This document shows, in pieces, positions 6,795 to 24,212 of a stretch of 39,567 bases of DNA. The translations under genes were made by a program, and so were the position numbers. Source of the DNA: a virus; IMG/VR virus record IMGVR_UViG_3300020202_000156, positions 1 through 39,567 of that record; one strand, 5' to 3'. The notes under the pieces were generated by a model. That model searched no databases. It saw nothing but the letters and a program-made list of their open reading frames with translations, and was not told where the DNA came from. Each line of letters opens with the position of its first letter. Position 1 is the first letter of the stretch.

Positions 6795-6809
6795 TCTTAC
6801 TGAATTACT
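6790..6809. other. Inverted repeat across convergent stop codons
   Basis: AGTAAT 6790-6795 pairs with ATTACT 6804-6809 over an 8-nt loop, spanning both stops of the converging operons. It lacks a T-run and is weak, so I do not call it a terminator; no stronger terminator is visible for either operon here. Confidence 0.3.
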
Positions 6810-7927
6810 CCTAGAAGATCGGTGTTGGATCCTCCCGCTTGTGCGGGGTTATCAGAGAATTCAATCATCATTGCGTAGTATTTAGTCTCTGTATAAGTCA
6901 AAGATCCAAGGGTTGCTCCGTCCACATATCGGAATGCTCCGCCAGCGGCTTTTACGGCATCCGGAGTTGTCCCGGTTCCCATCGTGTAGATTGCTCCAAA
7001 GGTATCGTTAGAACTTGCTTTTTGCAGGATGTCCCAGGCCAAACCGCCAGTTACTGTAACTGGCTCAAAACAGGTTCCTCCGCCTCGTTGCTGTGCGTTC
7101 CAGTCATCCGTTATGGTTAAGTTAAGAGAGTCAGTAGTATTCTGAACAACGTGTAATGACCCAAAGTTTGAATCGCTTGTACCGTGAATACAGGTAATTT
7201 TTAAATCCTCTGTGGGTGTAAATCGGTTTCCTCGGTAGTTAGTATTTGAAGCATGGGCGGCATCTTGTACTATGTAAGGATGACCGATTGAAACACCGTC
7301 GGTTACATACTCAACAACGGCGGATCCATAGGCTCCCCCAACAGTACCATCTAAAGTCCAGCCAGAGGTGTTTTGCCAAACACGATGAGCAACTCCAGCA
7401 TTACCGCCTGGAATATGCCCTCCTTCAAGCGCACCGCGAATCTCGATAGTTGGAAAATTAGAGGCAGGAGTAGCGTGGGTATTAGCAATTATGAACCATA
7501 GGGTTTTGCCTACAGGCCAAGTTACCCCAGTAAATGTAAACACATGCCAGCCAGCACCACTAGCCATACTGATTGTATCGCTCGTATACTGAACCGTAGA
7601 GGAAGTGGTGTCCGGGCGGTCAGGATCGTCACCGGAGGCATTAGCAGGATTATAGATATAGGCCGTCATAGAATCCGGCGTACCAGTGATTGAATTGACA
7701 TAGACATAGACTCGAATCGTTTCATTGGATAAGCCGTATCTTGCAGCGTGTTCAACACCTATTGAGTCACCGCTAGTACCGAAAACGAGAGCAGAGTCAA
7801 TCGCAAACCCTGTAGAGGCTCCAACGTCAAGATCGGTACTGAGTTGGCTAGGCCAAAAATTGTACTTAGCGTATGCAGGAAAGCTTATGGTTAGAAACAA
7901 TAAAAGAAGCGCGATTAATTTGTTCAT
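6797..7927 (-). CDS. Exported beta-rich protein, distal late-operon gene (376 aa)
   Basis: The N-terminus is a clear Sec signal peptide (MNK, hydrophobic core LIALLLLFLTISF, then AYA and probable cleavage after residue 20). The mature part reads as beta-sandwich repeats rich in Thr, Ser, Gly and aromatic residues, with two cysteines. It is the last gene of the late operon, where receptor-binding or virion-surface proteins often sit, so a tail-fibre or surface role is likely but inferred. ATG overlaps the previous stop (ATGA). No family recognised. Confidence 0.7.
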   Translation of the reverse strand: MNKLIALLLLFLTISFPAYAKYNFWPSQLSTDLDVGASTGFAIDSALVFGTSGDSIGVEHAARYGLSNETIRVYVYVNSITGTPDSMTAYIYNPANASGDDPDRPDTTSSTVQYTSDTISMASGAGWHVFTFTGVTWPVGKTLWFIIANTHATPASNFPTIEIRGALEGGHIPGGNAGVAHRVWQNTSGWTLDGTVGGAYGSAVVEYVTDGVSIGHPYIVQDAAHASNTNYRGNRFTPTEDLKITCIHGTSDSNFGSLHVVQNTTDSLNLTITDDWNAQQRGGGTCFEPVTVTGGLAWDILQKASSNDTFGAIYTMGTGTTPDAVKAAGGAFRYVDGATLGSLTYTETKYYAMMIEFSDNPAQAGGSNTDLLGVIQ

Positions 7928-8298
7928 GGCAACTCCTCCACCACGATTGATTCTGTGAGGGAGAATGTTTTACCTGTAGGGGTTTTAAGTTCCTCTACTA
8001 ATTCACCGACGCTTTTAAGAGCCAGTTGAGACTTGATAATCCTTCGATTCATCTTTGTATATTCAGGATCGCTTTTGTCTTCGCATGGTTCTGTATTAAC
8101 AGGACAGCAATATTTACAATTTGCAAAATCTTCGATGTCCTGAAGAGTTCTAAATCTGTGGGACAACCCATCAGTTCCAAAATGGAGCGTATACATAACG
8201 CCCCCATCCTCATAAGGTTCTTCTTCCATACGCATTGGAACTTCAGCTCCAAAAGCTGGAGTGCAAAGTAGTAATAAAAATAAAAGTCGTTTAATCAC
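7924..8298 (-). CDS. Small exported Cys-rich protein (124 aa)
   Basis: Starts at GTG 8298 behind an AGGAG site, inside the end of the fibre gene. Residues 1-18 form a signal peptide (MIKRLLFLLLLCTPAFG). The Cys in the hydrophobic core is preceded by LLL, not a standard lipobox, so I favour signal peptidase I. The mature part has four Cys packed as NCKYCC...EPC near 60-72, and a helical, charged C-terminus. Function unknown; it lies between two exported virion-type proteins. Confidence 0.65.
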   Translation of the reverse strand: MIKRLLFLLLLCTPAFGAEVPMRMEEEPYEDGGVMYTLHFGTDGLSHRFRTLQDIEDFANCKYCCPVNTEPCEDKSDPEYTKMNRRIIKSQLALKSVGELVEELKTPTGKTFSLTESIVVEELP

Positions 8299-9586
8299 TG
8301 TAGGCTCCTGTCATACAAATTGACACCCACGTTGGAGTTCCAGAGACAGAGGCAACGTCAATATCAACCCTATCTCCGTTTGCAACGGTAGCGTCACCAT
8401 CTAATGCGCTGTCTGTGTCTGGAGTTGAAATACAGGCAAGGTCTACTGAGTCCATATCCGCAGGTGTGCCATCATCTACCTGAAGCATGGTGTTTACCGT
8501 TTGATCTGATTCACACCAAAGATCAGAAACAGTAAATGTGAATCCCGTTCTATTAACCCAGGCACTTTGAAAGTCAGTTCCTGTAGGGCTGGTAATGCGA
8601 AAGCAAACTGGTTCTGTATAGGTTTCAGCGTCTGCATCACAAGAACCAGAAGCACAAGTCACGGATCTTCCACCTGCTGCGTTTAGTTCTTGTTGAACAA
8701 ATGCAGTAGTGGCGATTGAAGTATCGTTATCATCAGCAGAAGCAGTCGTAGAAGTAGAAGCAGTTAAGGTGTCAGAGACTTCGTTGTCAGCCCAGGGGTT
8801 TGCTGTGTTGACTAAATCTTCAGTAATCGTCCCATCAGCTATGTCTGTTAGAGTTGCTTCTAAAGGCTGGTAGTTAGAAGCTGTGATCGTGTCCGGTACT
8901 TGAGCGTCCGTTACAGCCCCTTGCATATCCTGAAGATCCATCAGACCTTCAAGCTCTGCTTCCACGCCCGAACCACTAAGCTCGGATGCAGAAACAGCAT
9001 CTGCTCCAATGTCATCAGCCGTTAAAGAATCATCTGCAATCTCACCTGCTAAACCACCGTCTACTGCTCCAGCAGCTAAGGCTGTATCGCTAACTTCACC
9101 TGCATCTGGAACATCATCATCAGCAGTACAAGACTCAACTGCACCACTCGCATCAATACCCAGAGGGTAGTTACCTGCGGAACAGTTAGCCCCGTTAGCA
9201 GCCAAAGCATCTGAAAGATCAGCTTTAGGCCAGTCATTAGAAAGAGTGATTAATAGTTTGTCAGCCGAAGGCTCTGTAAAAATAGAGTTTGTATCCCCTG
9301 TAGTAGCAATCTCTGTAATTGCTGAGGATTCATTAGATCCGTTATCTGCTAAGTCAAGGGCTGTGCTAGTACCTCCACCCCCTCCACCTCCAGAGATAGT
9401 GCAATCGGTACGTCCGTTAGCTGAATTATCCTCACAACTAACACCTGCACCTGCAAAGTTCAGAATCTTTCGCTTCGTCAGCGAAGTTCCCTCATCGGCT
9501 ACTGTCGTATATTTACTCTCCGAAAAAGATGAAGCGTGTACGGGAGTGGATATAAACAGAGCAATGATTAAAAGGATTAGTACCAT
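8291..9586 (-). CDS. Exported tail-fibre-like protein (431 aa)
   Basis: Signal peptide MVLILLIIALFISTPVHA, then a body typical of phage fibres: a Gly-rich hinge (GGGGGGG), low-complexity Ala/Asp/Ser/Thr repeats (about 70-310) and STTASADDNDTSIATTAFVQQ, a phrase common just before fibre C-termini. The C-terminal domain (about 315-431) resembles that of the 501-aa fibre at 19634. By my count the mature protein has ten Cys, including CASGSC. The site GAGG lies 8 nt upstream of the start. Adhesin or receptor-binding function is inferred from architecture. Confidence 0.75.
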   Translation of the reverse strand: MVLILLIIALFISTPVHASSFSESKYTTVADEGTSLTKRKILNFAGAGVSCEDNSANGRTDCTISGGGGGGGTSTALDLADNGSNESSAITEIATTGDTNSIFTEPSADKLLITLSNDWPKADLSDALAANGANCSAGNYPLGIDASGAVESCTADDDVPDAGEVSDTALAAGAVDGGLAGEIADDSLTADDIGADAVSASELSGSGVEAELEGLMDLQDMQGAVTDAQVPDTITASNYQPLEATLTDIADGTITEDLVNTANPWADNEVSDTLTASTSTTASADDNDTSIATTAFVQQELNAAGGRSVTCASGSCDADAETYTEPVCFRITSPTGTDFQSAWVNRTGFTFTVSDLWCESDQTVNTMLQVDDGTPADMDSVDLACISTPDTDSALDGDATVANGDRVDIDVASVSGTPTWVSICMTGAYSD

Positions 9587-9864
9587 GCTAAATACCTCAA
9601 TGAAGCCGTTTCCCCTGTGTTACAGCGGATATTCATCTTGACATATCCGTAAGGAGTATCTGTATCTAAGACAAGGGTTTCTCCAGCACGAAGCTGAAAG
9701 TCAGAAGTTGTAACTGAAGTAAAGGTAATCTCGTCCTGAACAATCTTGATATAAACTTCATCTGCCCCGTCATTGATGAGCATCAAATGAAAGGTTCCTT
9801 CCAAAGCTATGTTCTGAGTGCTTTGATCCACACTCAATGTCCCGCCTATTGATCGTTTAGCCAT
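9577..9864 (-). CDS. Small beta-sandwich virion accessory protein (95 aa)
   Basis: A compact beta-rich protein with alternating hydrophobic strands (GTFHLMLINDGADEVYIKI..., RAGETLVLDTDTPYGYVKM) and no signal peptide, one Cys. It reads like a capsid-decoration or tail accessory domain, but no family is recognised. It overlaps the fibre gene by 10 nt and its start lies in the stop of the preceding 37-aa gene. Confidence 0.6.
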   Translation of the reverse strand: MAKRSIGGTLSVDQSTQNIALEGTFHLMLINDGADEVYIKIVQDEITFTSVTTSDFQLRAGETLVLDTDTPYGYVKMNIRCNTGETASLRYLAWY

Positions 9865-9970
9865 TTGGTTTTTTCCTTTTCAACTTGAATATAAAAATGT
9901 TCCAAAGTCGTTTTAACCAACCTGTTTTCTTTGGAAGTTTTTCATGTAAATTTCTAATAAAGATAGACAT
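9857..9970 (-). CDS. Basic amphipathic mini-protein (37 aa)
   Basis: A 37-residue frame starts at ATG 9970, preceded by a strong TTTGAGGT site, and overlaps the next start by 8 nt. It is very basic (ten or more Lys/Arg) with aromatic residues in a helical pattern (FIRNLHEKLPKKTGWLKRLWNIF). This could be a membrane-active or nucleic-acid-binding peptide. It fills an otherwise empty gap in the operon, which supports its being real. Confidence 0.5.
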   Translation of the reverse strand: MSIFIRNLHEKLPKKTGWLKRLWNIFIFKLKRKKPNG

Positions 9971-9979
9971 AGCTTTACC

Positions 9980-10357
9980 TCAAACTTTCTGCTTTGATCG
10001 AAAGAGTTTCTTAACTCCCCGTATGGGGACAGTAAAAATTGAAATGGGAATAAAGGTTACAAAGGCTCCAACGTGATAGAGCCTCCCATAAACGGGTTTG
10101 TCGTATTTCGCAGTAGGATTCACTACATCCAGGAGATTCTTTCCAAGATTGCCTACGAGTTTGACATCTGTAAAGACATCATCTGAAGAAGCGTTATCAT
10201 GCTTCAAAAATTGTTCATCTAACTTATCCACAGGCATTGGACAAATACCCGATTTCCGGTACTCTTCCGATGACGCGCATCTTGTCCAGTAGCCTCCATA
10301 TTTTCCGTACTGTGGATGCCACCACTTGCGAACATTTAAAATATCCAGGGGGTTCAT
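9980..10357 (-). CDS. Late-operon protein with possible phospholipase A2-like motif
   Basis: The 125-residue protein has YGKYGGYWTRC near residue 20, ICPMPVDKLDEQFLKHD at about 38-54 and a hydrophobic segment VGAFVTFIPISIFTVPI near 100 followed by a basic tail. The P-x-D-x-L-D...HD pattern with flanking Cys and Gly recalls phospholipase A2 domains (Ca loop plus HD). The Cys pattern is incomplete, so this is a tentative call. A role in membrane penetration or lysis would fit. No clear ribosome-binding site is seen at ATG 10357. Confidence 0.45.
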   Translation of the reverse strand: MNPLDILNVRKWWHPQYGKYGGYWTRCASSEEYRKSGICPMPVDKLDEQFLKHDNASSDDVFTDVKLVGNLGKNLLDVVNPTAKYDKPVYGRLYHVGAFVTFIPISIFTVPIRGVKKLFRSKQKV

Positions 10358-10397
10358 ACTTTATAAAAGTCTTAAGTAAAGGGACAAAAAAATTTCC

Positions 10398-10610
10398 TTA
10401 CTTAATCTCCTTTTTGAGCATTTGTTTTATCTCTTTCATCTCTTCCTTAATATCCTGCTTAACATCACTAACTTTCTCTTCTAACTGTGCAACTCTTGTA
10501 TGAATTGAGGAAGCCCACCAAACACCTGCACTACCGTGGATCACCAGGAATCCTATTGCTGCTAACCAAACCTTAGTACCGTTCAGGATTACTGTTCTAT
10601 CGTTCGACAT
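10398..10610 (-). CDS. Single TM plus coiled-coil protein
   Basis: The 70 residues comprise a short polar N-terminus, one membrane segment (VWLAAIGFLVIHGSAGVWWA) and a long charged coiled coil (VAQLEEKVSDVKQDIKEEMKEIKQMLKKEI). This architecture is common next to phage lysis genes (holin-associated or spanin-like), but it also occurs in tail assembly proteins. It ends a few bases before the large internal virion protein gene begins upstream. Confidence 0.55.
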   Translation of the reverse strand: MSNDRTVILNGTKVWLAAIGFLVIHGSAGVWWASSIHTRVAQLEEKVSDVKQDIKEEMKEIKQMLKKEIK

Positions 10611-10613
10611 AAA

Positions 10614-13600
10614 TCACTTATCTAGTTCGTAAAGCTTAAAAGCTTTATCTGAAGTAGTCTCCTTTCGCACCTTTTGGATTTTTCCTTGCCGAGTTAGTTT
10701 TTTAACCGTACTTTTAACGGTTTTCTCTGGGTTAAGGCCTAGAGCTTCGATAGCCTTCAGGGTTGAGTCCAGAGGCTCACTATTTAGAATCTTTTCTTCT
10801 AGTCTTCTCTTGGCCTGTTTCTCGACCCAGAATGGATTTCGTTTTTCAGCATCAATACCGAAGAATCTCATAGCTCTACGGAGCTTTTCATTCTCGTCTG
10901 ATTCTGAGGACGCAATCTTTGGAAGATCTGTAGTAAAGGAAGTTGGTCCAACACCTTTAATAAATTCCTTCACCCGATCACCCATTGAAAGTTCTTCATT
11001 GAACTTTCCTTTTCCTGTTACAGCCGGAACAACCGCGTTAAGTAGAAGGTTGGAATACCCGAACTCAGGGGATAAGGTTGTGAAGTCGAGAAGATAGTCA
11101 AAGGGGTTTACTCCAGTAGCCCCAGACATATAGAGAATTGGGGCAAACAGTCCTGAAGCATTGGAGGGTTCCATATACTCAAGATTCAGATCAAACTCTG
11201 GGTTTAAAGGATTGAGAACAGTTTCTGTTAAGGCTTCAGGGCGAGTCATGTAAAACTCACCAATGTCTTTAAGACCTAAGCCCATCATGCCTAATACAGC
11301 AGAGTTCCAGGCCATACGAGTACCAAAGTAAGCAGCCGTAAAGATACGTTGTCTTGGTTCCTTCATAGCGTTCAGGAACACTCTATGAGATTCAGTTCTG
11401 AAAGTCGTAAATGGGTTTAAGAAGAAAGCACCGAAGTTTGTATTTCTTGCGTACTGGGCTAATTGAGAAGCTTCTTCATAATTAGGAAACCATTTATACA
11501 TCTCGGCTACCGCATCAGGACGAGCCATCTTTTTACCCTGAGTGTATTCAAGGTAAGTAGCCATCTTTGGGATCATATCTTCTTGCGAGTATTTTTCGGC
11601 TGCAAACTTAACCGCGTTCTTTGCACCCTTCTTCACCTTAGACCAGACAGTATCATTCGCTACTGGGTTATAAGGATTCTTAATAAGGTCTTCTACCCAC
11701 TTAATCTGATCTGCTACAGCAGCTTCAGTACCGATGACCCGATCCTCAACCATCTGACGATAGAGTTGATAATTAGGGTGAGTTGTAGGAAGCTTGCCTT
11801 GTTGAACCTTCTTCACATCCCCCAGAATATCTAAGACTTGTTTATAACGTCCCGGCTTCTGGAAAGGAGAAGTTCCTGCCAGCATTGAGAACCAAGCAAT
11901 GTTACCGATCATGTTATGACCATGTGACTTTGGGTTTACAAAGGTCTTAATACCTTTAAGAAAACGCATGGTATTCATAAAGGCTGTATCCAAGGGATCA
12001 GACATCTGAGAGATACCACGAAGCATGTCACCTACATCTTTAGTGGTATACATTCCTTCAACCGCACCCCAGGCAATCGACTCTGCACCTTTAATTAAAT
12101 GGTCATTAATTGAAGTAGGAGCGTGGGAAACTAATCCTAAATCCTTTAACTGCTTAATCAGATTTAAATGAGTATTTGCTTCGTTAATCGCTCTAGTGGT
12201 TTGAATCAAATTGAAGCGAGGATCTTTAATCTCACCTAAAAGGTTACGGATATAATCAGGCAGATCGCGTCTTGCAATAATAGCTTTACTGTTAACATTC
12301 AGTACCCCATCCGGTCTACGGAGGTTAATAACTTTATCTCGAAGAAGAGAATTGATCTTGTTCATAGCATCATCAACAGAGATTGCAGAGCCATCAGCGA
12401 TCAGGCCTTCAACTGCATCGTCAATGATCTGTTTCGAGGGTTTATAATCTGGGTCAAAGAAGAGTTGGTAATTACGTTTAACGTAAGCACCCGTATTTTG
12501 AGCAATAACTTGTGGTAGTTCTTGAATCCCAATCTTTCTTCCAGGAACAATCTTTTCTGCAATCCTGGTAAACTGTTCGGGGTCTTGAACATACAAGTCT
12601 TCAATCGTTTTCTGTAAACGAGAAGAGGACTCGTCAATAACTTGTCTTGCTTGTCTGAAAATCGTAGTCATGGCAGGGTCCGTAGCAGCAATCTGACCTA
12701 ATGCCTCATCACTTCCTCTTAAGGCATCATCCATAACATTCAGTAAATTTGGATGCTTCTCAGCAAACCTGCTCATATCCTGAGCTAGGGTTGCACCGTC
12801 AAATACGGAAGCATCACCCATCCCGCGAGTAGCCCTAACACTCTTTACAAATTCAGGGCTGTTCGCTGCTTCTAAATTGGTCTTACCTTTCATGGCATTT
12901 TCAACAACTCGAACAATTTCATTTCCTCTGAATTTAAGAAACTGCTCTTTAAAAGCAGGATTGCTCATAGCTGCATCAGCAGCTTTCGAGATTCCTTTTC
13001 CTGCTGTTTTAAACAAGGCCCCTAATCCTGCATACACTGGAATATCAGTGATAATGTCCAGTCCGAATCCGCCTACAGCGGATAGAAACTCAGGTGCGCC
13101 CATCTTGCGGAAGATATCTCCTAACTCTGGGGAATCACTCAAACGAAGCTTTGCATTTGGAAATTCAGTCACGGCTTTACCAGCTAAAGACTCATCTAAT
13201 TGACCAAGCTTACCTGTAATAAAATTAGTCTTTGCAGCTTCGTAGCGTTCTAGTCCTTCACCAAGTAATTGAATGGGTTTTGTAAGCCCCATCAAAACAC
13301 TCATAACAGGAACTCTCATAATCGAGTCTTTAACAACTTCAGCCACTGAAGGAACTTCTTTTTCGTTAGAGATTTCTTTTAAATGACTGAAATCTGCTCT
13401 GGTCTGGTCTTCATTTAAGTTTTGTCTTAGGAAGCGGTTAATGTTTTCAGGATCATCTTTGAAGCCGTGTTGAATAAGAACCTGTCTTGCAGATTCAATA
13501 TTCGCTTCATCAGAGTAAGGGTCATATTCCTCTTCAATCGGAACCTCAGATACTTGCTCCTGTTCCTGAACCGGAGCTTGTTCAGGGTTAAGCTGTTGGC

Positions 13601-13787
13601 TTAAGAAATTAAGACCAATATCCTCTTGTGGGGCTGGCTGTGTAGGGACAGCCTGAGCCGGAATGTTTGCCCCTTGCAGGGGAACTTCATCTTGAGGAAT
13701 AGAATCTCTTTGATCTGAGGTCTTCTGTAAGAAGTTCTGTAAGAATCTTGTACCTAATCCGATTGGACCGAACTTGTAATCTGCCAT
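10614..13787 (-). CDS. Large candidate internal virion (ejection) protein, 1057 aa
   Basis: The largest product in the window. It has a disordered Gln/Pro/Glu-rich N-terminus (about 1-100), long helical regions, and Gly/Ala-rich hydrophobic stretches around 150-260 and 790-860. There is no signal peptide and I see no Cys. Its position directly after nozzle and two smaller helical proteins matches the ejection-protein cluster of T7- and P22-like podoviruses, which form a channel for DNA entry. I see no transglycosylase or protease motif. The assignment is by position and composition. Confidence 0.6.
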   Translation of the reverse strand: MADYKFGPIGLGTRFLQNFLQKTSDQRDSIPQDEVPLQGANIPAQAVPTQPAPQEDIGLNFLSQQLNPEQAPVQEQEQVSEVPIEEEYDPYSDEANIESARQVLIQHGFKDDPENINRFLRQNLNEDQTRADFSHLKEISNEKEVPSVAEVVKDSIMRVPVMSVLMGLTKPIQLLGEGLERYEAAKTNFITGKLGQLDESLAGKAVTEFPNAKLRLSDSPELGDIFRKMGAPEFLSAVGGFGLDIITDIPVYAGLGALFKTAGKGISKAADAAMSNPAFKEQFLKFRGNEIVRVVENAMKGKTNLEAANSPEFVKSVRATRGMGDASVFDGATLAQDMSRFAEKHPNLLNVMDDALRGSDEALGQIAATDPAMTTIFRQARQVIDESSSRLQKTIEDLYVQDPEQFTRIAEKIVPGRKIGIQELPQVIAQNTGAYVKRNYQLFFDPDYKPSKQIIDDAVEGLIADGSAISVDDAMNKINSLLRDKVINLRRPDGVLNVNSKAIIARRDLPDYIRNLLGEIKDPRFNLIQTTRAINEANTHLNLIKQLKDLGLVSHAPTSINDHLIKGAESIAWGAVEGMYTTKDVGDMLRGISQMSDPLDTAFMNTMRFLKGIKTFVNPKSHGHNMIGNIAWFSMLAGTSPFQKPGRYKQVLDILGDVKKVQQGKLPTTHPNYQLYRQMVEDRVIGTEAAVADQIKWVEDLIKNPYNPVANDTVWSKVKKGAKNAVKFAAEKYSQEDMIPKMATYLEYTQGKKMARPDAVAEMYKWFPNYEEASQLAQYARNTNFGAFFLNPFTTFRTESHRVFLNAMKEPRQRIFTAAYFGTRMAWNSAVLGMMGLGLKDIGEFYMTRPEALTETVLNPLNPEFDLNLEYMEPSNASGLFAPILYMSGATGVNPFDYLLDFTTLSPEFGYSNLLLNAVVPAVTGKGKFNEELSMGDRVKEFIKGVGPTSFTTDLPKIASSESDENEKLRRAMRFFGIDAEKRNPFWVEKQAKRRLEEKILNSEPLDSTLKAIEALGLNPEKTVKSTVKKLTRQGKIQKVRKETTSDKAFKLYELDK

Positions 13788-13789
13788 AA

Positions 13790-14557
13790 TTAATTAACTT
13801 GAATAGATCCGTCTTGGTTAAATTTAACTCGTTTACCGTTCTTTAATCTAAATTCTCCAGCCTTATAAAGTTCTGATGGGCTTGCTACCGAACCTTGTTT
13901 CTTGGTAACGCGTACTCCACCTGGACCAGCCGTAGTACGAATCTCTTCTCCAGCCGTTTTACCTTGGAGAAGGTCATCAGGAAGCTGGTCTAGTAATTGT
14001 TCACGAACAGTTTTACCTAAAAGAGCATCATCAATCTTTCCTTTAGCATCTCGGTAAACCGCTTTCAGTCTCTGAACAAAATCCGTTATCCCGCTAACGG
14101 ACTCACCCTTTACAACATTCCCAGTGAGAGGATCTTTACTTAAAATATCTGGGATAAATTGATTCACAATGGGAACTTGATCTAAGGCTTTAGAAATATT
14201 ATCTTTGGTTTGCTCAATCAGCCCCCCAGTACGTCTATTTGGATCAATCTCAATTCCCGTACTTTTTTTCTTAGCGGTATTCATTCGGTGTGCTGCTATG
14301 CGAGGATTTGTAGTACCAAAAATGTCGGATACTTGGCTTAATGCAGCGTTCGTCTTTATGTCAGAAGATTTCTTTGAAATAACTTGATCTAACACACCTT
14401 GGATATCATCTGCACTTAATTGACCTTGAGCTAAAAGGTTTTCAACTTGAGCGTGTCTTTGTCTTGCTACGGACTCCTGTAGTAATTCTGGAGATAACTG
14501 ACCTGTTTCAAGTAACTGTGCGATTTGTTTTTTGATGTTATTAAGATCGTTTGCCAT
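13790..14557 (-). CDS. Candidate internal virion protein (255 aa)
   Basis: ATG 14557 is preferred to 14638 because an AGAAGG site lies 8 nt upstream and the longer start would overlap the previous gene. The product is helical, Gln- and Lys-rich (DLNNIKKQIAQLLETGQLSPEL...), with a beta-rich end (EFRLKNGKRVKFNQDGSIQVN). No Cys, no membrane segment. It sits between two likely ejection proteins; function inferred from position. Confidence 0.55.
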   Translation of the reverse strand: MANDLNNIKKQIAQLLETGQLSPELLQESVARQRHAQVENLLAQGQLSADDIQGVLDQVISKKSSDIKTNAALSQVSDIFGTTNPRIAAHRMNTAKKKSTGIEIDPNRRTGGLIEQTKDNISKALDQVPIVNQFIPDILSKDPLTGNVVKGESVSGITDFVQRLKAVYRDAKGKIDDALLGKTVREQLLDQLPDDLLQGKTAGEEIRTTAGPGGVRVTKKQGSVASPSELYKAGEFRLKNGKRVKFNQDGSIQVN

Positions 14558-14561
14558 GAGA

Positions 14562-15365
14562 TTACCTTCTTCCGACTTGACGCTGATAATTTGAAATTGC
14601 TGCCCCGACCAAGGGTGCAGTTTTTGGATTTGCTGCACTAGCAGTTATATTATTAATAAAATTACTGGACCTAGAATTACCGAATGTTGCTTGAATTAGG
14701 TCTTTAATGTTTTCTGGTTTCTTCAAATGGTCTTGTACCGCTGTAGGTGTTCTCTGGGACATAAAGCTTGTAACTTTGTTGAACCCAGAGAAGAAATCCC
14801 TTCCACCGCTAATGAGCTTTTTTCCAGTAGCCGTATCAATTCGAGGCAAATCAAATCCAAGTGTCGCCAGTTGTTTTAGTTCATGGTCACTTACAGATTT
14901 ATTTGGGTCAAACCCTTGGACCATTAATCCACTTGCTAAGGATGGATTCGCTCTTAAAAAAGTAGCAAGCTCTGAAAGAGTAGAAAAGGTTCTACCTCGC
15001 ATGGCGTTATCTGCTGTACGAAGATTAAAAGCCCGTACTCTTCCTGAACTTATGTTTGTTTTACGGGATATTTTTAAAACACCACTCGGAGCATCAGGAA
15101 GGTCAGCTCCTTTGCCCGAAGACCTACCACCACCGGAACCCATACCGCGAAGAAGTCCTTGTAGAGATCCAATGGATTGTCGCCTCATATTCGATATACT
15201 TTGTTCTCGAAGCCCCTCTTGTGTAGCTAAGGATTCTCTTAACGAATCACTCAGTTCAGGAAGATTCGCTCTCTGAATTTGCTGCGCTGCAAGTGGACTT
15301 GTACCAATTCCAGAATCTATAAAGGCATCTCTTAAATCGTCTAGCGTCTGTAAACTAACTGCCAT
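14562..15365 (-). CDS. Candidate internal virion protein (267 aa)
   Basis: An Arg/Gln/Ser-rich, mainly helical protein with a Gly/Ser-rich hinge near residue 72-86 (GLLRGMGSGGGRSSGKG) and no Cys or signal peptide. It follows the nozzle gene by two bases. Small helical proteins at this position in podoviruses are commonly ejection proteins; no sequence motif confirms it. Confidence 0.55.
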   Translation of the reverse strand: MAVSLQTLDDLRDAFIDSGIGTSPLAAQQIQRANLPELSDSLRESLATQEGLREQSISNMRRQSIGSLQGLLRGMGSGGGRSSGKGADLPDAPSGVLKISRKTNISSGRVRAFNLRTADNAMRGRTFSTLSELATFLRANPSLASGLMVQGFDPNKSVSDHELKQLATLGFDLPRIDTATGKKLISGGRDFFSGFNKVTSFMSQRTPTAVQDHLKKPENIKDLIQATFGNSRSSNFINNITASAANPKTAPLVGAAISNYQRQVGRR

Positions 15366-15367
15366 AT

Positions 15368-17725
15368 TTACCTCTCGGATCGTATATCTGCGTCAACAAC
15401 ATAAGCAGATATATCTATAGGTGGATTTATTGTGTCGCTTGTGTTATACACAAAGCTTCTCAGTCCGTACTGTAACCAGGTCGCTCTTAAAGGCTTGCTG
15501 AACTTGGTTACTCGGGAATCATTAAAATCAAGTGTGAGAATTGTTTCGGGAGTTGTAGACTTATCCATATACCCATACACTTCAACATCTTGAGTTGAAT
15601 CACTTAAGTTATGAACAACCCAAAAACTATTTGTAATTGTTTCCTGTGGGGGCTTAGAGAAGGTGTATTGCTTCGTTTCTAGCTCTGGGATAATGTAAGC
15701 AATGTAGTACACATCCCCTGCAATCGGATTCGTTGTCCATGCAGGGCTTACGGTAAGTTGAGTCCCAGTATTAGAAGTAATCTGACGGTACTCACCGTTT
15801 TCATTATCTAAATAAACCCAAAGACCCGTTAATCCTGCATTGGTTGTATTGAACGTAGCTCCTGAATCAGTAAGAGTAGTGCTAGTAGATGAAGTAGTAG
15901 TTCCAGTGACTGTGCCAGATTCAATTCCATTTTCATACCCTATCCAGTTGTTATAAAAAAAGCCGAGTGTATCAACCATAACACCTTGACCAGCAGCATT
16001 AGGTGATTTGCGATATAAAGAGGCTCCCATCTTTGTCGCAGGGACATAACTCCAAGACTCATTTAGTGTATTGAAGATGAAAGAATGGGAACCTATAAAG
16101 AGGATGTAAAATCCATTATCTTTATCAAAGTAAGCGTGAGCAGAAGTATAATCGGATGGATCTAAATCTATCTGCGAGTCTGTGCCTTTAAATACTTCAT
16201 CAAGTACCGGAGATGAAATACGAATGGATTTATTATCATTCGTATTAATAATAGATCCCAGTAAGTTATCTGAGGGTTTTCGATTAACCGTTAATTTGTA
16301 AACTCCCTGAACCCCCGCAAAGAAAATAACATCACCGTTATTATCAGTTTCAATGGTCGCGTCACTAACCGTCCCAACCCCATCTAATATTTTGTTAAGA
16401 CGAAAAGATCTTGCACCAAAACCTGATAGCTCCAGTACGGACTTATCCGTAAAAGCTAACAGGGCGTTAGATGTCGCGTGAATGCCTGTTACAGAAGACT
16501 CTGTTCCGAGAGAAATTTTATCTGACTCTAACCAGTAGGTATCTGCACTTGAAACAGCAGATACTGGAAGGCGATTGAATTGAAGAGTGCTAGCTTCACC
16601 TAAGAAGATTACACCTTGATAAGACTCTATATACTTATAGGAAGGTGGGGTAATGGTATCAATCGTGGTGTCAAGTGCTGGTCCTAAAGAAGCATCAGGC
16701 TTACCGTCTGTGTAAGCTCCCGTTGTCTGATAACCTAAAAGAAAGTAATCTGATCCGCCAGCAACTGTACGATAAATTCTGTAACCATCAAACGGTGCTG
16801 AAGGGGCAGCAGCAAGTGTTCCTGTCGTGCGAGTTTCCCTTCCATGCGTAACGTATTGAATATCAGAACAGCAAGCAGCATTCCAATCACTATAAGGGCT
16901 GTCTGTATCACAAGCATTGCAGCTTGTACCTGACCAAGTAAATAAACTATCCCCGCTTAAGGTAGCATCATCAGAACTACTTGCTTCTGATTCAATTCCC
17001 CAAACTGACGAATAACTTGTTACTTTGTATTTATATGTTGTAGAGGTTCCTGCGGTTTCTAAGGTTCCGTTATCGGAACTAACGCTAGTACCCCCAGTAT
17101 CAGGTGAAGACCCTAACCAAATACATCCTGTCGCTGTTGTTGATGGCGAATTAGCACAAGCGCCGGATGCCGTCAGGTTTGGAGCAACACTAATTGGTTG
17201 TCCGGGTGTTAGACCCCCTTCACCAGTCGTAGCTGCAAAGTTGACAGAAGCAGGAGCAGAAACACCTGTAATTGCTGTTGCTGCACCAGAACCAGTCCAC
17301 CGATAAAGGCCGTCTGTAGCAGAGGTAATATAAAGCGTATCACCGATTTGAACGGCATCATGCGCTTCATTGGTTAAACCCGTATTTAATTGAGTTCGGT
17401 TCGTTCCATCTACATCATAAGAAGCAAGAACCGTATTCTCCATACGGACCAGCTTCTTCGTTGTACCAGCTGCGTTCTCGTAGTACCAGAAACCATTGGT
17501 TGTGGTATTTGTAAGAGCGGTAGAATTTAAGCGGTTTCGACCCTTAACTACTTGAATGTTTCCATCCTTGATATAGAGGTTATTAAACTTTGCATGGAAA
17601 CCGTCTTCCATCTTATCTGCTTTTTGCCTTGATAAACCAGACAGCTTATCAACCTGAATCAGTTGTGCATAAACTGGTTGAAGAGTAAGAGCAAAAATTA
17701 AAATAAAAGAAATTAGCTTTTTCAT
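15368..17725 (-). CDS. Tail nozzle (T7 gp12 / P22 stabilisation-type) protein with signal peptide
   Basis: The 785-residue protein closes the podovirus tail tube. The mature N-terminus (LSGLSRQKADKMEDGFHAKFNNLYIKDG..) and repeated short beta-strand units (LVRMENTVLASYDVDG, ALLAFTDKSVLELSGFGAR, GDVIFFAGVQGVYKLTV) match the beta-propeller nozzle pattern. Oddly, residues 1-20 are a perfect Sec signal peptide (MKKLISFILIFALTLQPVYA). The ATG has AAGG 7 nt upstream, and the next Met is only at 39, so the signal is very likely translated. By my count six Cys, four clustered (CNAC...CC). It follows the adaptor gene by zero bases. Confidence 0.8.
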   Translation of the reverse strand: MKKLISFILIFALTLQPVYAQLIQVDKLSGLSRQKADKMEDGFHAKFNNLYIKDGNIQVVKGRNRLNSTALTNTTTNGFWYYENAAGTTKKLVRMENTVLASYDVDGTNRTQLNTGLTNEAHDAVQIGDTLYITSATDGLYRWTGSGAATAITGVSAPASVNFAATTGEGGLTPGQPISVAPNLTASGACANSPSTTATGCIWLGSSPDTGGTSVSSDNGTLETAGTSTTYKYKVTSYSSVWGIESEASSSDDATLSGDSLFTWSGTSCNACDTDSPYSDWNAACCSDIQYVTHGRETRTTGTLAAAPSAPFDGYRIYRTVAGGSDYFLLGYQTTGAYTDGKPDASLGPALDTTIDTITPPSYKYIESYQGVIFLGEASTLQFNRLPVSAVSSADTYWLESDKISLGTESSVTGIHATSNALLAFTDKSVLELSGFGARSFRLNKILDGVGTVSDATIETDNNGDVIFFAGVQGVYKLTVNRKPSDNLLGSIINTNDNKSIRISSPVLDEVFKGTDSQIDLDPSDYTSAHAYFDKDNGFYILFIGSHSFIFNTLNESWSYVPATKMGASLYRKSPNAAGQGVMVDTLGFFYNNWIGYENGIESGTVTGTTTSSTSTTLTDSGATFNTTNAGLTGLWVYLDNENGEYRQITSNTGTQLTVSPAWTTNPIAGDVYYIAYIIPELETKQYTFSKPPQETITNSFWVVHNLSDSTQDVEVYGYMDKSTTPETILTLDFNDSRVTKFSKPLRATWLQYGLRSFVYNTSDTINPPIDISAYVVDADIRSER

Positions 17726-18835
17726 TTATCGCCTTGAAAGTGGATCAAAACCATTAAGACCAGATTTACGGACGTTATACTCACCTTGAGATTGCCATCG
17801 AACATCCGTAATTGCTTTGTGAGAATCACGAAGCTGTTTCAATGTTCTTTCAAAATCCGCCCTAGCTTGCTGGATACGAACAGGGTTCTTATCTTCCAGA
17901 TCATGTAAGGCAAGCCATATCGAACCGTGAAGTAAGGGAGCATGATTCGGAATAATCGAGATATCATTCCCATCAATTAGTTTTGGAGCTTTGATTAACG
18001 CATCAATTTCTACAAAATAATAATCATCCGGCGTGTCTCTTAACTGCATGATTAAAGAATTCTTTGGAGCAATCTTGTAAGACTTCCCAGAACCCGTTGA
18101 GCCTTGATAAGCTTCTCTGAGTGTTAAAGAAGTAGAGCTTGCAACCGACTGAACAACATACGGGACGGGGAATTCATTCACGATAAAAGGCATTCCTTCC
18201 ATATCAGCCGTAAACGTAGTCCCGCTTCCGGTTACGGTCTTAGAGCCGTTTGTCATGCTAACGGTTCCAGTTGTATAAAAATCAGCTTCTAATCCACCAC
18301 CAATGCAAGCTTCAGTAGGCGTACCTACAGACTCTTTAGCAAGAGTCATTCGGTCTAAGTTTTTAAGAACTAACTCTTTTCCTTCGATATAAACATTCAC
18401 AATCGAAGAGATTGAAGGATCTAAAATGTAGTTAGGATAAACAATCTTATAGGTTTGTGCTGAAGCCGTAGCTTCTGGGTATTTTGCAGCAATTTCTAAA
18501 GAAGTAGTGCTAACGGAAGAATAAGGATCTACTTTAAAGATCCGTCCGTTATGAATAAGGTATCCTGTCTTTACAATATCCGACCAAGAGGTTCCAGAAC
18601 CTGTGATCGTTGCATCACCTTGAGTAACTGAGATAGTGCCTGTCTCATACTTAGGGCGTGTAGAAATATAAAACTGTCTTAATCTCCATTCCCAATTTCG
18701 ATCAAACACAATCAGATCTTGGATCTGATTAATTCTTAATTTAACACTCGTTAGAATGTTAGAATCTACACTCGATTGGGTTAGACCCATCTGGGTTAAA
18801 ACTTCATCAATTATTGAGCCAAAGGTATCGATCAT
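17726..18835 (-). CDS. Tail adaptor (T7 gp11-like tail tubular A / connector) protein
   Basis: The N-terminal helical part (FGSIIDEVLTQMGL... VKLRINQIQDLIVFDRNWEWRLRQF) is the hallmark of podovirus head-to-tail adaptors. The middle contains two copies of a beta domain: residues about 60-130 (GTISVTQGDATITGSGTSW ... AQTYKI) and about 185-255 (GTVSMTNGSKTVTGSGTTF ... GKSYKI). The C-terminus is helical and charged. No signal peptide. Directly upstream of the nozzle gene, as expected for the two parts of the tail tube. Confidence 0.78.
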   Translation of the reverse strand: MIDTFGSIIDEVLTQMGLTQSSVDSNILTSVKLRINQIQDLIVFDRNWEWRLRQFYISTRPKYETGTISVTQGDATITGSGTSWSDIVKTGYLIHNGRIFKVDPYSSVSTTSLEIAAKYPEATASAQTYKIVYPNYILDPSISSIVNVYIEGKELVLKNLDRMTLAKESVGTPTEACIGGGLEADFYTTGTVSMTNGSKTVTGSGTTFTADMEGMPFIVNEFPVPYVVQSVASSTSLTLREAYQGSTGSGKSYKIAPKNSLIMQLRDTPDDYYFVEIDALIKAPKLIDGNDISIIPNHAPLLHGSIWLALHDLEDKNPVRIQQARADFERTLKQLRDSHKAITDVRWQSQGEYNVRKSGLNGFDPLSRR

Positions 18836-18845
18836 ATAGTCCTCT

Positions 18846-19634
18846 TTATTCGTCGAAAATTACTGGGGTACAGGTTGACGTACTGGAGCAAGTGTCTGCG
18901 TAAGCTCCTGTGGGAGCCGTAAAATTACTTGTCCAAACAGCGGTTCCTTTAACCAGCCGGATTTCATCCATCCAACCATTCAAGTCACCTGTTCCAGTCC
19001 CGCCCGTTTGACTTCCTACTGCAATATCAGAAGTGCTATTAAAGATAGTCGCTGAAAGCGTTTGTGTAGTACCGATTTGAGTTCCATCAATAAACATTAA
19101 TAAGTCATTACCGTTTCGGACTACAGCAACGTGATACCAAACAGCCGTTGTAGGGGTCCAACTATTACTCAGGGTAACGGTCGTTGATCCGTCAGTTGTG
19201 TATAAAAACCTTAAAAGATTTGATGTATTCCACTGAACAAGCCAAGCATTTTGACTCGCTACTCCAAATTGAGCGATAAGGTTTGCGTTTGTCGCCACGC
19301 TATTAAAACGCACCCAAAAATCAATCGTAAAACTTCCAGCCCCTAGATCCCAATCTGCACTATCCACAGAAGATAAGTAATCATCTGTTCCGTCAAACAA
19401 GGCTGATGCCCCGCCAAACTTCGACTGGGCTGTATCAATCTGGGCCTGGTTATTTGCTGTTACTGTTTTAGGAGTTGAACTAGAGTCAGTAAACGTAGTG
19501 GAACCATCTGAACCATCAGCATGGAGCATTAACTTCGTATCCGTATCATTGCAAGTAGACGTACTTGCAGAAAATACAGGTGAAGCAAAACCTAGGACTA
19601 AAATCAAAAAGACACTGAGTATCTTTCTAATCAT
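18846..19634 (-). CDS. Exported LamG/concanavalin-fold protein (262 aa)
   Basis: Signal peptide of about 22 residues (MIRKILSVFLILVLGFASPVFS) is followed by a complete LamG_3-type jelly roll: FGGASALFDGTDDYL, DWDLGAGSFTIDFWVRF, WYHVAVVRNGNDLLMFIDG and LNGWMDEIRLVKG are classical strand signatures. Such domains bind glycans, and in phages they occur in tail spikes and head decorations. Three Cys in the mature part, two near the C-terminus. It lies between the long fibre and the tail adaptor, so a receptor-binding virion protein is likely. Confidence 0.78.
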   Translation of the reverse strand: MIRKILSVFLILVLGFASPVFSASTSTCNDTDTKLMLHADGSDGSTTFTDSSSTPKTVTANNQAQIDTAQSKFGGASALFDGTDDYLSSVDSADWDLGAGSFTIDFWVRFNSVATNANLIAQFGVASQNAWLVQWNTSNLLRFLYTTDGSTTVTLSNSWTPTTAVWYHVAVVRNGNDLLMFIDGTQIGTTQTLSATIFNSTSDIAVGSQTGGTGTGDLNGWMDEIRLVKGTAVWTSNFTAPTGAYADTCSSTSTCTPVIFDE

Positions 19635-21139
19635 TATTCCCGATCCTTAGCATGGTACGCTGTTACTGTTACGTTTGTTACGGTTCCAGTAACCGTTCCG
19701 ACATTGATTCGGACCCAATCGCCTGCATCAATGGTTCCGTTCGTAAACGTACCATCATCTTCAGCACCATCGTTATCGCAGGTAATGTTCGCGTCCGTGG
19801 TCGTACAGTTGTCGCCCGTTGCGTCACACTCATCAACACTGATTAAGACTGATTCTGAAGAATCCGCAGGATCAACAATACAGTGAATGTCTGAAATTGT
19901 TATGGGATAACGCGCCTTAAAAATAAGAGGGTCGTTAGAAGCAGAAGGAGAACCAATCACATAGCTAAATAATTTCTTTGAGGTATGGACGTTTACAGCC
20001 GAGCCGTCATACACAAGTAAGTCTGAGGCTGTCGTATCTAATGCAGCTTCACCAGCAGCGTCTACCGTAGGTCCAGTACCTTGGGGGATGGCTAAAGAAC
20101 CTGTGATAACTTTATCAGCCATACTGGAAGGAAGACGAGCATCTTCAATCGTGCCAGCAGAAAAGAAGGAAGTTGCACTATCGCCTGTATCTGCTTCAAT
20201 CACGTTATTAGCAGCAGCTAAGGTTTTATTCGTTAATGTTTCCGTTCCTGCTAATGTAGCGAGAGTGCCAGTAGCAGATGGGAGCGTGATATCTATATCC
20301 GTTGTAACGGGATTAGCAGATGGAGAGATAATATTGAGTTCAATCGTATCCGCCGAAGTTCCTTCCCAAACCAACATTGTAGTTCCAGTCGTAGTCTTAC
20401 CGTCCGTAAAACATGCGCCATCGGAACATGCTGGACCAACATCAGAGATATCTCCTGCACCACCTCCACCGTCATCAGTGTCCCATTCAGGGGCAGTAGC
20501 TCCAGCATTCATTTCAAGAACTTGACCAGCCGTACCTTTCGGCAATGCTACCCAGTCCGTTCCGTTGTAATACATAATGTCGCCTTGAGCATCGGACCCA
20601 AGAGCAATGTCTGTACCGTCAACCGAGTTATTCTGAACCGTAGTGGCACCTGCGTTATCAATCGCAATATCTCCACTCATAGTCACTGAGGTTGCTACGT
20701 TTGAGCCATTTCCAACTAAAATATTTCCTGAAGTAAGAGAAGCGAGTTTTGAATAAGCAATCGCAGCCGAAGCATTAATATCCGCGTTTACAATCGCACC
20801 ACTATTGATATTGGCCGTAACGGTATTTGAAGTATCAACAAAATCAATATCTCCCGTTGAGGCAAAGTTAGGGTCAGTGACAGCCACGCTGTCCACACTG
20901 ACGCTATCTCCCACGGAACCTGTAGCAGCAATCGTTAAGGTTTCATTGCCACCATCATTATTTTCAGTCAAAGTAACATTTGATCCAGCAACAAGCTTTC
21001 CATTTAAATAACCTGCTGTGGTATCGTTAGAACTAACTTTGGCTTTACGCTCAAAAGCAGCTTGAGCTTCATCTACACCAAAGGCGTAGAGAAGTGTAAT
21101 TAGTAAGAAACTAAATAAGACCTTTGGTATAAACTTCAT
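19634..21139 (-). CDS. Exported tail-fibre-like protein (501 aa)
   Basis: ATG 21139 is chosen because GAGGAAGG lies close upstream; a longer reading to 21208 only adds residues inside the previous gene. Signal peptide about 27 residues (MKFIPKVLFSFLLITLLYAF...AQA). The body has standard fibre phrases: KLVAGSNVTLTENNDGGNETLTI, GTAGQVLEMNAGATAPEW, TLPSATGTLATLAGTETLTNKTL. The C-terminal domain (about 395-501) resembles the end of the 431-aa fibre. Six Cys by my count. It probably forms trimeric fibres that recognise the host; the signal is anomalous for a virion protein. Confidence 0.78.
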   Translation of the reverse strand: MKFIPKVLFSFLLITLLYAFGVDEAQAAFERKAKVSSNDTTAGYLNGKLVAGSNVTLTENNDGGNETLTIAATGSVGDSVSVDSVAVTDPNFASTGDIDFVDTSNTVTANINSGAIVNADINASAAIAYSKLASLTSGNILVGNGSNVATSVTMSGDIAIDNAGATTVQNNSVDGTDIALGSDAQGDIMYYNGTDWVALPKGTAGQVLEMNAGATAPEWDTDDGGGGAGDISDVGPACSDGACFTDGKTTTGTTMLVWEGTSADTIELNIISPSANPVTTDIDITLPSATGTLATLAGTETLTNKTLAAANNVIEADTGDSATSFFSAGTIEDARLPSSMADKVITGSLAIPQGTGPTVDAAGEAALDTTASDLLVYDGSAVNVHTSKKLFSYVIGSPSASNDPLIFKARYPITISDIHCIVDPADSSESVLISVDECDATGDNCTTTDANITCDNDGAEDDGTFTNGTIDAGDWVRINVGTVTGTVTNVTVTAYHAKDRE

Positions 21140-21536
21140 AGCCCTTCCTCTGTACTGTTTCGATAGTCTTGATCCAAGACCTTGCAAGAACATAGCCGTC
21201 CTTGTCATCTTTATTAATCACTTGTGATCCCACCACTTCACCTTGAGGGTTTGAAAAATTAATCTTTTTCTGAAGTTCTGAGACCCTTCTACAAATAGTA
21301 AATTTCGGGATTGTTATGTTATGGGTAATCCCTGTAACAAACCCATTCTCTCCCTTTGAGCTATCCCACAAACATTTATGCGTTTGATTAGAAAACCATC
21401 GAAGGGAGGGATTGTATCTAGTTACTGCATTCATCAACTCTTCCCGAAGAATACTTCCAGAGAAGTAGCCTTTTTTATAAGCATCCTCTAAGGATTCTGC
21501 GTAAACGATTATTTCTTTGGGAAGAACTTTTGCCAT
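21111..21536 (-). CDS. Hypothetical late-operon protein (141 aa)
   Basis: I favour ATG 21536 (GAGG about 9 nt upstream); a GTG at 21584 would add 16 residues but lies inside a hairpin without a good site. The protein is mixed alpha/beta with Cys near 52 and 80, begins AKVLPKEIIVYAESLEDAYKKGYFSGS and has no signal peptide. No family recognised. It overlaps the 501-aa fibre gene by 29 nt, so it may be a chaperone or assembly factor for that fibre; this is a guess. Confidence 0.5.
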   Translation of the reverse strand: MAKVLPKEIIVYAESLEDAYKKGYFSGSILREELMNAVTRYNPSLRWFSNQTHKCLWDSSKGENGFVTGITHNITIPKFTICRRVSELQKKINFSNPQGEVVGSQVINKDDKDGYVLARSWIKTIETVQRKGYEVYTKGLI

Positions 21537-21559
21537 TAGGTGTGCCTCAAGTAGAGTGA

Positions 21560-21580
21560 GTGGGGACTTTGAATCCCCAC
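21560..21580 (-). other. Intergenic hairpin after the short exported protein gene
   Basis: GTGGGGA pairs perfectly with TCCCCAC over a 7-nt loop between the stop at 21600 and the start at 21536. There is no T-run, so it is not a standard terminator. It may protect the upstream capsid mRNA from 3' decay or attenuate downstream fibre expression. Confidence 0.4.
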
Positions 21581-21599
21581 CCACCCTCGGTAAAACAAA

Positions 21600-21971
21600 T
21601 TACAGAACGTCTGCGTAGTTAGTTCCGTCGCAAACGCAAGTGTTCACGGCAGAGCCAGTTCCGCTAGCCATCGTGCAGTCTGTTGCTCCGCCAGCGTTCG
21701 TAGAGACGTAAATAAATCCCTTTAACGCAGCAGCGCAAGTAGGCGCACTAGCCTCAACACCAGCACCAGGGATAAAACCACTGGAGTTAGCAATCGTAAT
21801 GGTCCGATCGGCTGTAGGATCAGTGACACTGACCGTAGTTTCGCTAGAGTCAGCGGTTGCTCCTTCAAACACCAAACCATCAACGTCGATTTCAGCACCA
21901 TCTGGCGTGAAATACGCGAAAGCAGGTGAAGCAATTAACATCACCAAAATCGCAATTAAAAATTTCTTCAT
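21600..21971 (-). CDS. Short exported fibre-like or decoration protein (123 aa)
   Basis: Directly downstream of the capsid gene. Signal peptide MKKFLIAILVMLIASPAFA (cleavage after 19). The mature part contains TTVSVTDPTADRTITIANSSG, the phrase found in phage fibres just before their C-terminal heads, and four Cys (TC...DC...CVC), probably two disulphides. Position suggests a capsid-decoration protein; sequence suggests a miniature fibre. Which is right cannot be told by eye. Confidence 0.65.
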   Translation of the reverse strand: MKKFLIAILVMLIASPAFAYFTPDGAEIDVDGLVFEGATADSSETTVSVTDPTADRTITIANSSGFIPGAGVEASAPTCAAALKGFIYVSTNAGGATDCTMASGTGSAVNTCVCDGTNYADVL

Positions 21972-22025: not shown

Positions 22026-22970
22026 TTAGCCAGCGTTGTACGCCCACAAAATCTGAGCGCGGTTAGCATCAAGGAGCTTAGTCCCGAAGTACATCTTGTA
22101 ACCAACAGTTGCACGTTGGTTCAAAGGGTCTTCAGTTCCAGCAGAGCCGTGAGGCTTCACAATAATTTCCGTGTCTTTACCAGACAGGTTGCTAACACCA
22201 AACGCATTTTCACCGACGAAAATATTTCCGTAAGTGTTGGTAGATGTTGCATCTGCTCGGATGTTCGTAGAACGAAGGAGCTTGATATTAAAAGCAGTAC
22301 CAATCTCACCTTTTTCTAACGTACGTCCAGCAGAACCATTGTGCGCTGAAAGAATAATGAACGAAGAAGCAGCCGTTTCAGAAATAAGATCAAACTCCAT
22401 CAAGGGGTGAATCACACCACGATAGAGGCCGTCCGAGAAAGGCTTCACATCATTTTTACGCATAACCCGAAGAATGATTTTCAGGTCGCTAGAAGCAATA
22501 ACGTCCGTACCAGTTTCTACGTTCGCTTTAGAACTGTTGTTAGTCGGATCTGTATAACGCTGAGTTCCGTTAGCATCCAGTTCGTTACGAATGAGAGAGT
22601 CACGGCTAAGAGCAGCCATGTAACCGAGCCAATCAACAGAATCTTTCATCGTGTCATTGATTGCGGTGAACTGTAAGAAATCAGAGATCGTTACATAAGC
22701 ACCATAACCATTAATCGTTGTAGAGACTGTGCTGGAAGACATGGTTGTTCCGTCCGGCGAAACACCGTCCGTAAGAGCCGTAGTATTAGCAGTAGGAAGA
22801 GTCCAGCGGTTAAATTTGAGGACGTTACCACTATGTAGCGGTAAATCTCTTTTTTGACCGAGAGCTTCTAACTGAAGTTCCTTTTTCAGAACGTCTAAAA
22901 AGCGATTGACCAGATATGTCATCTGGTGATCGCTAAATGACGCTTTTACATGAGTATTTAATTGAGCCAT
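22026..22970 (-). CDS. Major capsid protein (N4-gp56 family)
   Basis: The 314-residue protein reads as an N4-gp56-type HK97-fold capsid subunit: an N-terminal helix (FLDVLKKELQLEALGQKRDLPLHSGNVLKFNRW), the loop TLPTANTTALTDGVSPDG, GYGAYVTISDFLQ, a spine helix region and the C-terminal TVGYKMYFGTKLLDANRAQILW. No Cys. Gene order scaffold - capsid is normal. The phage also encodes GroES, which may help fold this protein. Confidence 0.85.
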   Translation of the reverse strand: MAQLNTHVKASFSDHQMTYLVNRFLDVLKKELQLEALGQKRDLPLHSGNVLKFNRWTLPTANTTALTDGVSPDGTTMSSSTVSTTINGYGAYVTISDFLQFTAINDTMKDSVDWLGYMAALSRDSLIRNELDANGTQRYTDPTNNSSKANVETGTDVIASSDLKIILRVMRKNDVKPFSDGLYRGVIHPLMEFDLISETAASSFIILSAHNGSAGRTLEKGEIGTAFNIKLLRSTNIRADATSTNTYGNIFVGENAFGVSNLSGKDTEIIVKPHGSAGTEDPLNQRATVGYKMYFGTKLLDANRAQILWAYNAG

Positions 22971-23934: not shown

Positions 23935-24212
23935 TAAATTTTGTTCTCCTTTTGTAACTTAACTTTTTCATGTCGGAGAAAGTCCGACTTTGAAAGAAGT
24001 TTTTTAAGTTCATCAATACGGCTGTTTATCGCTACTAGCTGGATAGCCGAATCCATTGAAGGCGATACAGCTAACTGCTCTGCTTTCATCCTCAAATTTT
24101 TGATTTTGGATTCAATATGTTGTTCAAGTTTTTTGAAACAAGGATGACTGATTAACTCGTTCCATTCCTGAACATCAACGATCTGTGGATCAAGCAACGT
24201 CTTGGGTTCCAC
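23934..24212 (-). CDS. Small helical protein between portal and scaffold
   Basis: A 92-residue helical protein (GTG start at 24212, overlapping the portal stop by 23 nt; its last base is shared with the scaffold start). It contains WNELISHPCFKKLEQHIESKI and a coiled-coil stretch near the end. Small genes at this place occur in many podoviruses as head-assembly accessories. No family recognised. Confidence 0.6.
   Translation of the reverse strand: MEPKTLLDPQIVDVQEWNELISHPCFKKLEQHIESKIKNLRMKAEQLAVSPSMDSAIQLVAINSRIDELKKLLSKSDFLRHEKVKLQKENKI

Follow-up and report, generated by a model that had tools for sequence, protein, structure and literature searches.

In tailed phages, the tail parts are regarded as cytoplasmic. 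The coat proteins of filamentous phages, fd pIII for example, are virion proteins that carry a Sec signal peptide and assemble from the membrane. P22 was reportedly put together in vitro from heads and baseplate parts (Israel 1967, a reference listed in PMC3741392). Its tail parts are not known to be exported. Here we analyse the late operon of an uncultured short-tailed phage with an integrase, IMG/VR record IMGVR_UViG_3300020202_000156, the whole of which (39,567 bases) is termed the window. Its tail nozzle, fibre and other late proteins bear predicted signal peptides (SPs) that are kept in its close relatives. An earlier note on this DNA had named seven such products, the nozzle among them, and had held that an SP-tagged nozzle conflicts with purely cytoplasmic tail assembly, a view that our analysis supports.

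To call signal peptides, we combined a von Heijne-type weight matrix with requirements on the n- and h-regions; in a check on seven E. coli signal peptides the matrix put the cleavage sites where they belong. Of the seven products named earlier, six yielded a Sec peptide of the signal peptidase I type, with a basic n-region, a hydrophobic h-region and small residues at -3 and -1. All lie on the minus strand, and the positions used in the earlier note for the seven open reading frames (ORFs) are their low coordinates. With a slash marking predicted cleavage, the six are a 376-residue protein at the operon end (6797-7927; MNKLIALLLLFLTISFPAYA/KYN) and a 124-residue protein with a GTG start (7924-8298; MIKRLLFLLLLCTPAFG/AEV), both without assigned function; the 785-residue nozzle of the T7 gp12/P22 gp10 type (15368-17725; residues 1-20, MKKLISFILIFALTLQPVYA/QLI); a laminin-G/concanavalin-like (LamG-like) protein (18846-19634; MIRKILSVFLILVLGFASPVFS/AST; Pfam PF13385, E 1e-18); a fibre-like protein with a VKVSSNDTTAGYLNGKL-type motif immediately after the peptide (19634-21139; MKFIPKVLFSFLLITLLYAFGVDEAQA/AFE); and a small fibre-like protein, here called post-capsid, whose gene adjoins the capsid gene on its downstream side (21600-21971; MKKFLIAILVMLIASPAFA/YFT). 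The seventh, a 431-residue fibre-like protein with 10 cysteines (8291-9586; MVLILLIIALFISTPVHA/SSF), shows a hydrophobic core and a cleavage site of the AxA type, but no basic residue stands ahead of the core, so that the basic n-region ascribed to it earlier is absent. The fibre ORF opens at 21208; its predicted start is 21139 instead, because a strong Shine-Dalgarno sequence stands there (AGAGGAAGGGCT-ATG). Shine-Dalgarno-like sequences precede the SP starts in general. Neither a lipobox (signal peptidase II) nor a twin-arginine (Tat) motif was found in the SP-bearing products.

The peptides are selective, as had been claimed: with the same matrix, the interleaved TerL, portal, scaffold, capsid and adaptor proteins and the three ejection-type products starting at 14562, 13790 and 10614 yield no SP call. 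One further late gene passes the SP score (10398-10610, 70 residues); its product looks like a membrane-anchored, spanin-like protein, which hints weakly at a diderm host. Outside the late operon, an endolysin-like product (30968-31423, plus strand; phrog_938; Hydrolase_2 at E 2e-4, below cutoff) has a zinc-ribbon-like start and then a signal-like hydrophobic stretch ahead of its endolysin-like part. Applied to seven control phages (T7, EcP1, Pf-WMP3, TR020, HTVC103P and two Manatee Spring phages), the procedure made between 0 and 3 calls in each late region, and several of these were spurious or fell on lysis genes.

Scanning IMG/VR with the capsid, portal, adaptor and nozzle gave seven close members of a clade, window included, with sequence after the capsid gene; the nozzle was reached in four distinct species, namely the window, G001, G004 (identical with G005) and G006. 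The nozzle gene stands directly after the head-tail adaptor gene and before the ejection-type genes in the window, G001 and G005, and in G006 on the adaptor side only. Searches of Pfam, PHROGs and cultured phages returned no match to the 785-residue protein. An iterated profile nevertheless gathered 38 nozzle matches in wider relatives, and hhalign joined the clade nozzles to these SP-less nozzles (98.1%, E 7e-14, 443 columns), the capsid, adaptor, portal and fibre controls being negative. Structural comparison was made with models of low confidence (pLDDT 41 from a four-sequence alignment, rising to 49 with 19 sequences), too poor for disulfide geometry. Against the PDB, Foldseek nonetheless ranked podovirus or crAss tail proteins in all of the top 12 places for the first model and the top 25 for the second, led by the nozzles and muzzles of T7, Kp9, SU10, P22, VP1 and crAss001. 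In a second look with VIA-align, WD40/propeller proteins ranked intermixed with nozzles, and the call relies on Foldseek and hhalign. By these two comparisons the 785-residue protein is a true podovirus nozzle, and the nozzle's place among the SP carriers holds. A search of the window, G001, G005 and the fragment G006 for a further nozzle, one without an SP, found none.

The hhalign match to SP-less nozzles begins at window residue 23, right after the predicted cleavage site at 20/21, and none of the 38 matches of the SP-less family has an SP by the same criterion. Within the clade, all four distinct nozzles known (44-52% identical) carry one. Homologue alignment had been set beforehand as a test, and the extension proves to be kept in all known close relatives. 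Mean identity is 38% in the nozzle SP and 53% in the nozzle core, with hydrophobicity and the alanine at -1 retained, a pattern of drift as would be expected of a real signal peptide. AxA-type cleavage sites are likewise kept in the four nozzles and in most other products. In the window the nozzle's next methionine comes at residue 39, and elsewhere it lies later or is absent within the first 90 residues; an internal start, which the earlier note had named as a refutation, is impossible without loss of conserved nozzle residues. As judged from these alignments, the nozzle SP is a graft ahead of the canonical nozzle N-terminus. The fibre resembles the nozzle in this: its motif recurs behind a different, SP-less N-terminus in L053, L058 and L071. 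A 95-residue protein (window 9577-9864) is SP-less in the window and in L001, where its homologue sits before the portal, whereas the homologue in L003 (6727-7053) bears an SP, so that individual genes can gain or lose one.

Each of the seven clade members whose sequence extends past the capsid gene has SP-bearing late genes. The nozzle, fibre and LamG positions are SP-bearing in all four phages that reach them (for LamG: the window, L001, L033 and L035); the adaptor adjoining the nozzle is SP-less in four of four. The post-capsid gene carries an SP in the window, L001, L002, L003, L033 and L034 and lacks one in L035. Within 10 kb behind the capsid, 21 of 52 clade genes are SP-bearing, against 17 of 480 in other capsid relatives (Fisher p 9e-14); among these wider relatives, mostly at ~20-35% capsid identity, any SP was found in 10 of 58 loci having at least four genes. 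Clade monophyly has 100/100 support with L012 included, a contig that ends just behind the capsid gene. Fibre-sized genes with an SP are scattered among the wider relatives (L053:5835-9060, L029, L056:11701-14435, L079:12292-16170, L096:13095-14628 and L019:27247-28632), whose nozzle, wherever identified, is without SP; this scatter suggests repeated gain. L029, a phage-like contig in a Parcubacteria metagenome-assembled genome (MAG), combines a related capsid with two such genes, and the Bacillota MAG contigs L028, L030 and L031 have no SP-bearing genes. Portal and capsid scans of genome contigs for a clade host matched only distant relatives (Bacilli, Eubacterium, Clostridia and Parcubacteria MAGs). 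Acquisition of the SP-bearing genes as one foreign block was considered and dropped, GC content giving no clear separation from SP-less genes.

Extracytoplasmic bacterial proteins favour even numbers of cysteines (PMC7678975), and for this reason cysteine parity can be read as a trace of export. Mature SP-bearing proteins of four phages with at least two cysteines comprise 19 even and 2 odd (binomial p 1e-4), compared with 10 even and 14 odd for SP-less nozzles (p 7e-4 vs 19:2) and 36 even and 23 odd for all SP-less proteins of at least 100 residues (p 0.014 vs 19:2). With L002 and L034 included, the ratio is 20:3, against 9:10 for SP-less late proteins of the same phages (p 0.007). An insert of ~160-185 residues in the nozzle, lying in the stretch left unmatched by the alignment to SP-less nozzles, holds exactly six cysteines in each phage at mostly differing positions. 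Cysteine columns 86 and 130 are both present in two phages and both absent in the other two. This even bias suggests a disulfide signature, and hence that the SP-bearing proteins really fold outside the cytoplasm.

The late operon, on the minus strand, opens with the terminase, portal, scaffold, capsid, the post-capsid small fibre-like protein, a 157-residue protein and the fibre-like protein; it continues with the LamG protein, adaptor, nozzle, three ejection-type proteins and a small membrane protein, and its end is taken up by small and fibre-like genes. Among the SP-less products, the large terminase (26152-27807; phrog_2, E 3e-34), portal (24190-26115; phrog_332, E 1.5e-30, also phrog_1216) and major capsid protein (22026-22970, cysteine-free; phrog_1357, E 4e-40) have family matches; the scaffold-like protein (23005-23934) has none and is named from its position and acidic composition. 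The SU10-type head-tail adaptor (17726-18835; PF24175, E 3e-4), encoded immediately upstream of the nozzle, contains two stretches of a ~70-residue domain that elsewhere in PHROGs falls under tail fibre proteins. The ejection-type proteins lack cysteines; those at 14562-15365, following the nozzle, and 13790-14638 are assigned by position, and the 1057-residue one (10614-13787) matches a virion structural protein family (phrog_22602, E 2e-5). No interior protein bears an SP. In the finished particle, SP-bearing products would be exposed on the exterior of the tail or head, and SP-less ones would mostly lie inside or close the head. On the plus strand, the phage encodes a GroES/Cpn10 (39145-39429; PF00166, E 5e-27); L002 has a Cpn10-like ORF too, at 425-700, upstream of its terminase genes. 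The gene after the DNA polymerase (38687-39133, plus strand) has an N-terminal hydrophobic stretch; an SP-bearing gene of G001 (L021:12366-12827) is likewise near the DNA polymerase gene.

We propose, at a probability of roughly 55%, that the outer virion parts (nozzle, fibres, LamG-like and post-capsid proteins) are Sec precursors that are exported, folded with disulfides and met by cytoplasmic heads at lysis. The host Sec translocon would export the precursors, signal peptidase I would remove the peptides, and the mature parts would fold in the periplasm or envelope, forming disulfide bonds there. Interior proteins would remain in the cytoplasm, where heads would be built, filled with DNA and closed by the portal and the SP-less adaptor. 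The holin/endolysin step would then open the inner membrane and bring heads and exported parts together, with nozzle and fibres docking on the adaptor. What the sequences themselves present is the SPs and their conservation, the nozzle's identity, the apparent graft, the inside/outside split, the cysteine parity and the lack of a second nozzle where one was sought; on these, export of the SP-bearing tail parts appears well supported, and from them we infer that export, cleavage and oxidation actually happen, that the adaptor closes the head, and where and when docking takes place. That the clade is a tailed double-stranded DNA (dsDNA) phage lineage with a two-compartment virion, its DNA-filled heads cytoplasmic and its Sec-exported, envelope-folded nozzle and fibres joined only at lysis, we regard as an even bet. 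Several points weigh against the proposal. Once exported, the nozzle could be degraded or go astray before it docks, heads without a nozzle might leak DNA, and a strongly oxidising host periplasm is assumed. The SP calls rest on a simple matrix rather than SignalP, and the parity sets count homologous proteins together, so that the counts are not fully independent. Cysteine density is equal in SP-bearing and SP-less nozzles (1.02 and 0.99 per 100 residues) and was dropped as nozzle evidence; only parity and location differ.

Of the three options left by the earlier note, the best fit is export followed by joining at lysis. Anchoring, in which uncleaved or slowly cleaved peptides hold nozzle and fibres at the inner membrane for heads to dock there before lysis, draws on the same sequence evidence and would remove the loss problem; we nevertheless think it unlikely, since an anchor needs none of the AxA-type sites kept in the nozzles and most other products, the mature part would face the periplasm beyond reach of a cytoplasmic head without a breach, and cysteine parity indicates full exposure. 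Display on the lysogen, with the SP-bearing products as surface proteins rather than virion parts, would suit a phage that encodes an integrase and several SP-bearing products without known virion role, and lambda Lom lies among tail genes (PMC12309495). For the nozzle it is disfavoured because no second, SP-less nozzle was found for this essential virion part and because the genes lie inside the structural operon, in an order fixed in several species. A lysogenic conversion gene should have a promoter and terminator of its own; promoter-like sites in the region are fewer than in shuffles (16 against 33), and there are some terminator-like sites (20 against 13 expected). We judge lysogenic conversion very improbable.

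A further possibility, distinctly doubtful in our view, is dual targeting, whereby inefficient peptides leave a cytoplasmic fraction to build the virion and an exported fraction serves, for example, superinfection exclusion or receptor blocking. A single gene could then serve both ends, in keeping with the one nozzle found, but the peptides in most genes score like efficient ones and the parity implies an oxidised functional form. It is highly improbable that the hydrophobic N-termini stay in the virion as structural helices unrelated to Sec: they are shared by several unrelated proteins with a small residue retained at -1, SP-less nozzles end exactly at the peptide's boundary, and the fibre motif has a different N-terminus in SP-less phages. 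A gene-start artefact, with translation beginning downstream of the hydrophobic stretch, could appeal to the fibre, the one start in seven that differs from that of the longest ORF. Yet it is scarcely credible, given the Shine-Dalgarno-like sequences at the SP starts, the conservation of the hydrophobic leaders in relatives and a next nozzle methionine lying beyond conserved residues, by which it is contradicted.

If the export reading is true, Sec export and oxidative folding belong to tailed-phage morphogenesis, and conserved, selective SPs that mark precisely the outer virion proteins, the nozzle among them, offer a testable case for compartment-split assembly. Such a split would have a reason in disulfide-stabilised receptor-binding parts, and the combination of an SP with an even cysteine number is a sequence test that can be run across viral databases. 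A study of diversity-generating retroelements counted the absence of SPs in favour of a phage origin (PMC6199706); our results are a caution for pipelines in which a signal peptide speaks against a role in the virion.

Full-text literature searches, most of which targeted phage virion proteins with SPs and which did not extend to subscription journals, yielded no description of an exported nozzle, in agreement with the earlier note; the SPs in the phage papers so found belonged to endolysins or Lom-like proteins or were simply counted. As far as could be checked, the kinds of protein are known and the address label kept across the clade is new. The SP-bearing product encoded in the tail region recalls lambda Lom (PMC12309495), but Lom is a host outer-membrane protein and not a virion part, whereas the clade tags its essential nozzle. 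Unlike filamentous phages, the clade has the head-tail build of a dsDNA phage, packages its capsid, encodes lysis genes and tags only outer tail parts. The in vitro morphogenesis of P22 is alike in that tail parts are added late to finished heads outside an intact cell, while the clade is proposed to separate the parts by compartment. The closest likeness is to podovirus nozzles (T7 gp12, P22 gp10, SU10 and the crAss001 muzzle), in Foldseek fold, adaptor-nozzle-ejection order and profile match; compared with these known nozzles, only those of the clade carry an N-terminal Sec SP together with a six-cysteine insert of ~160-185 residues.

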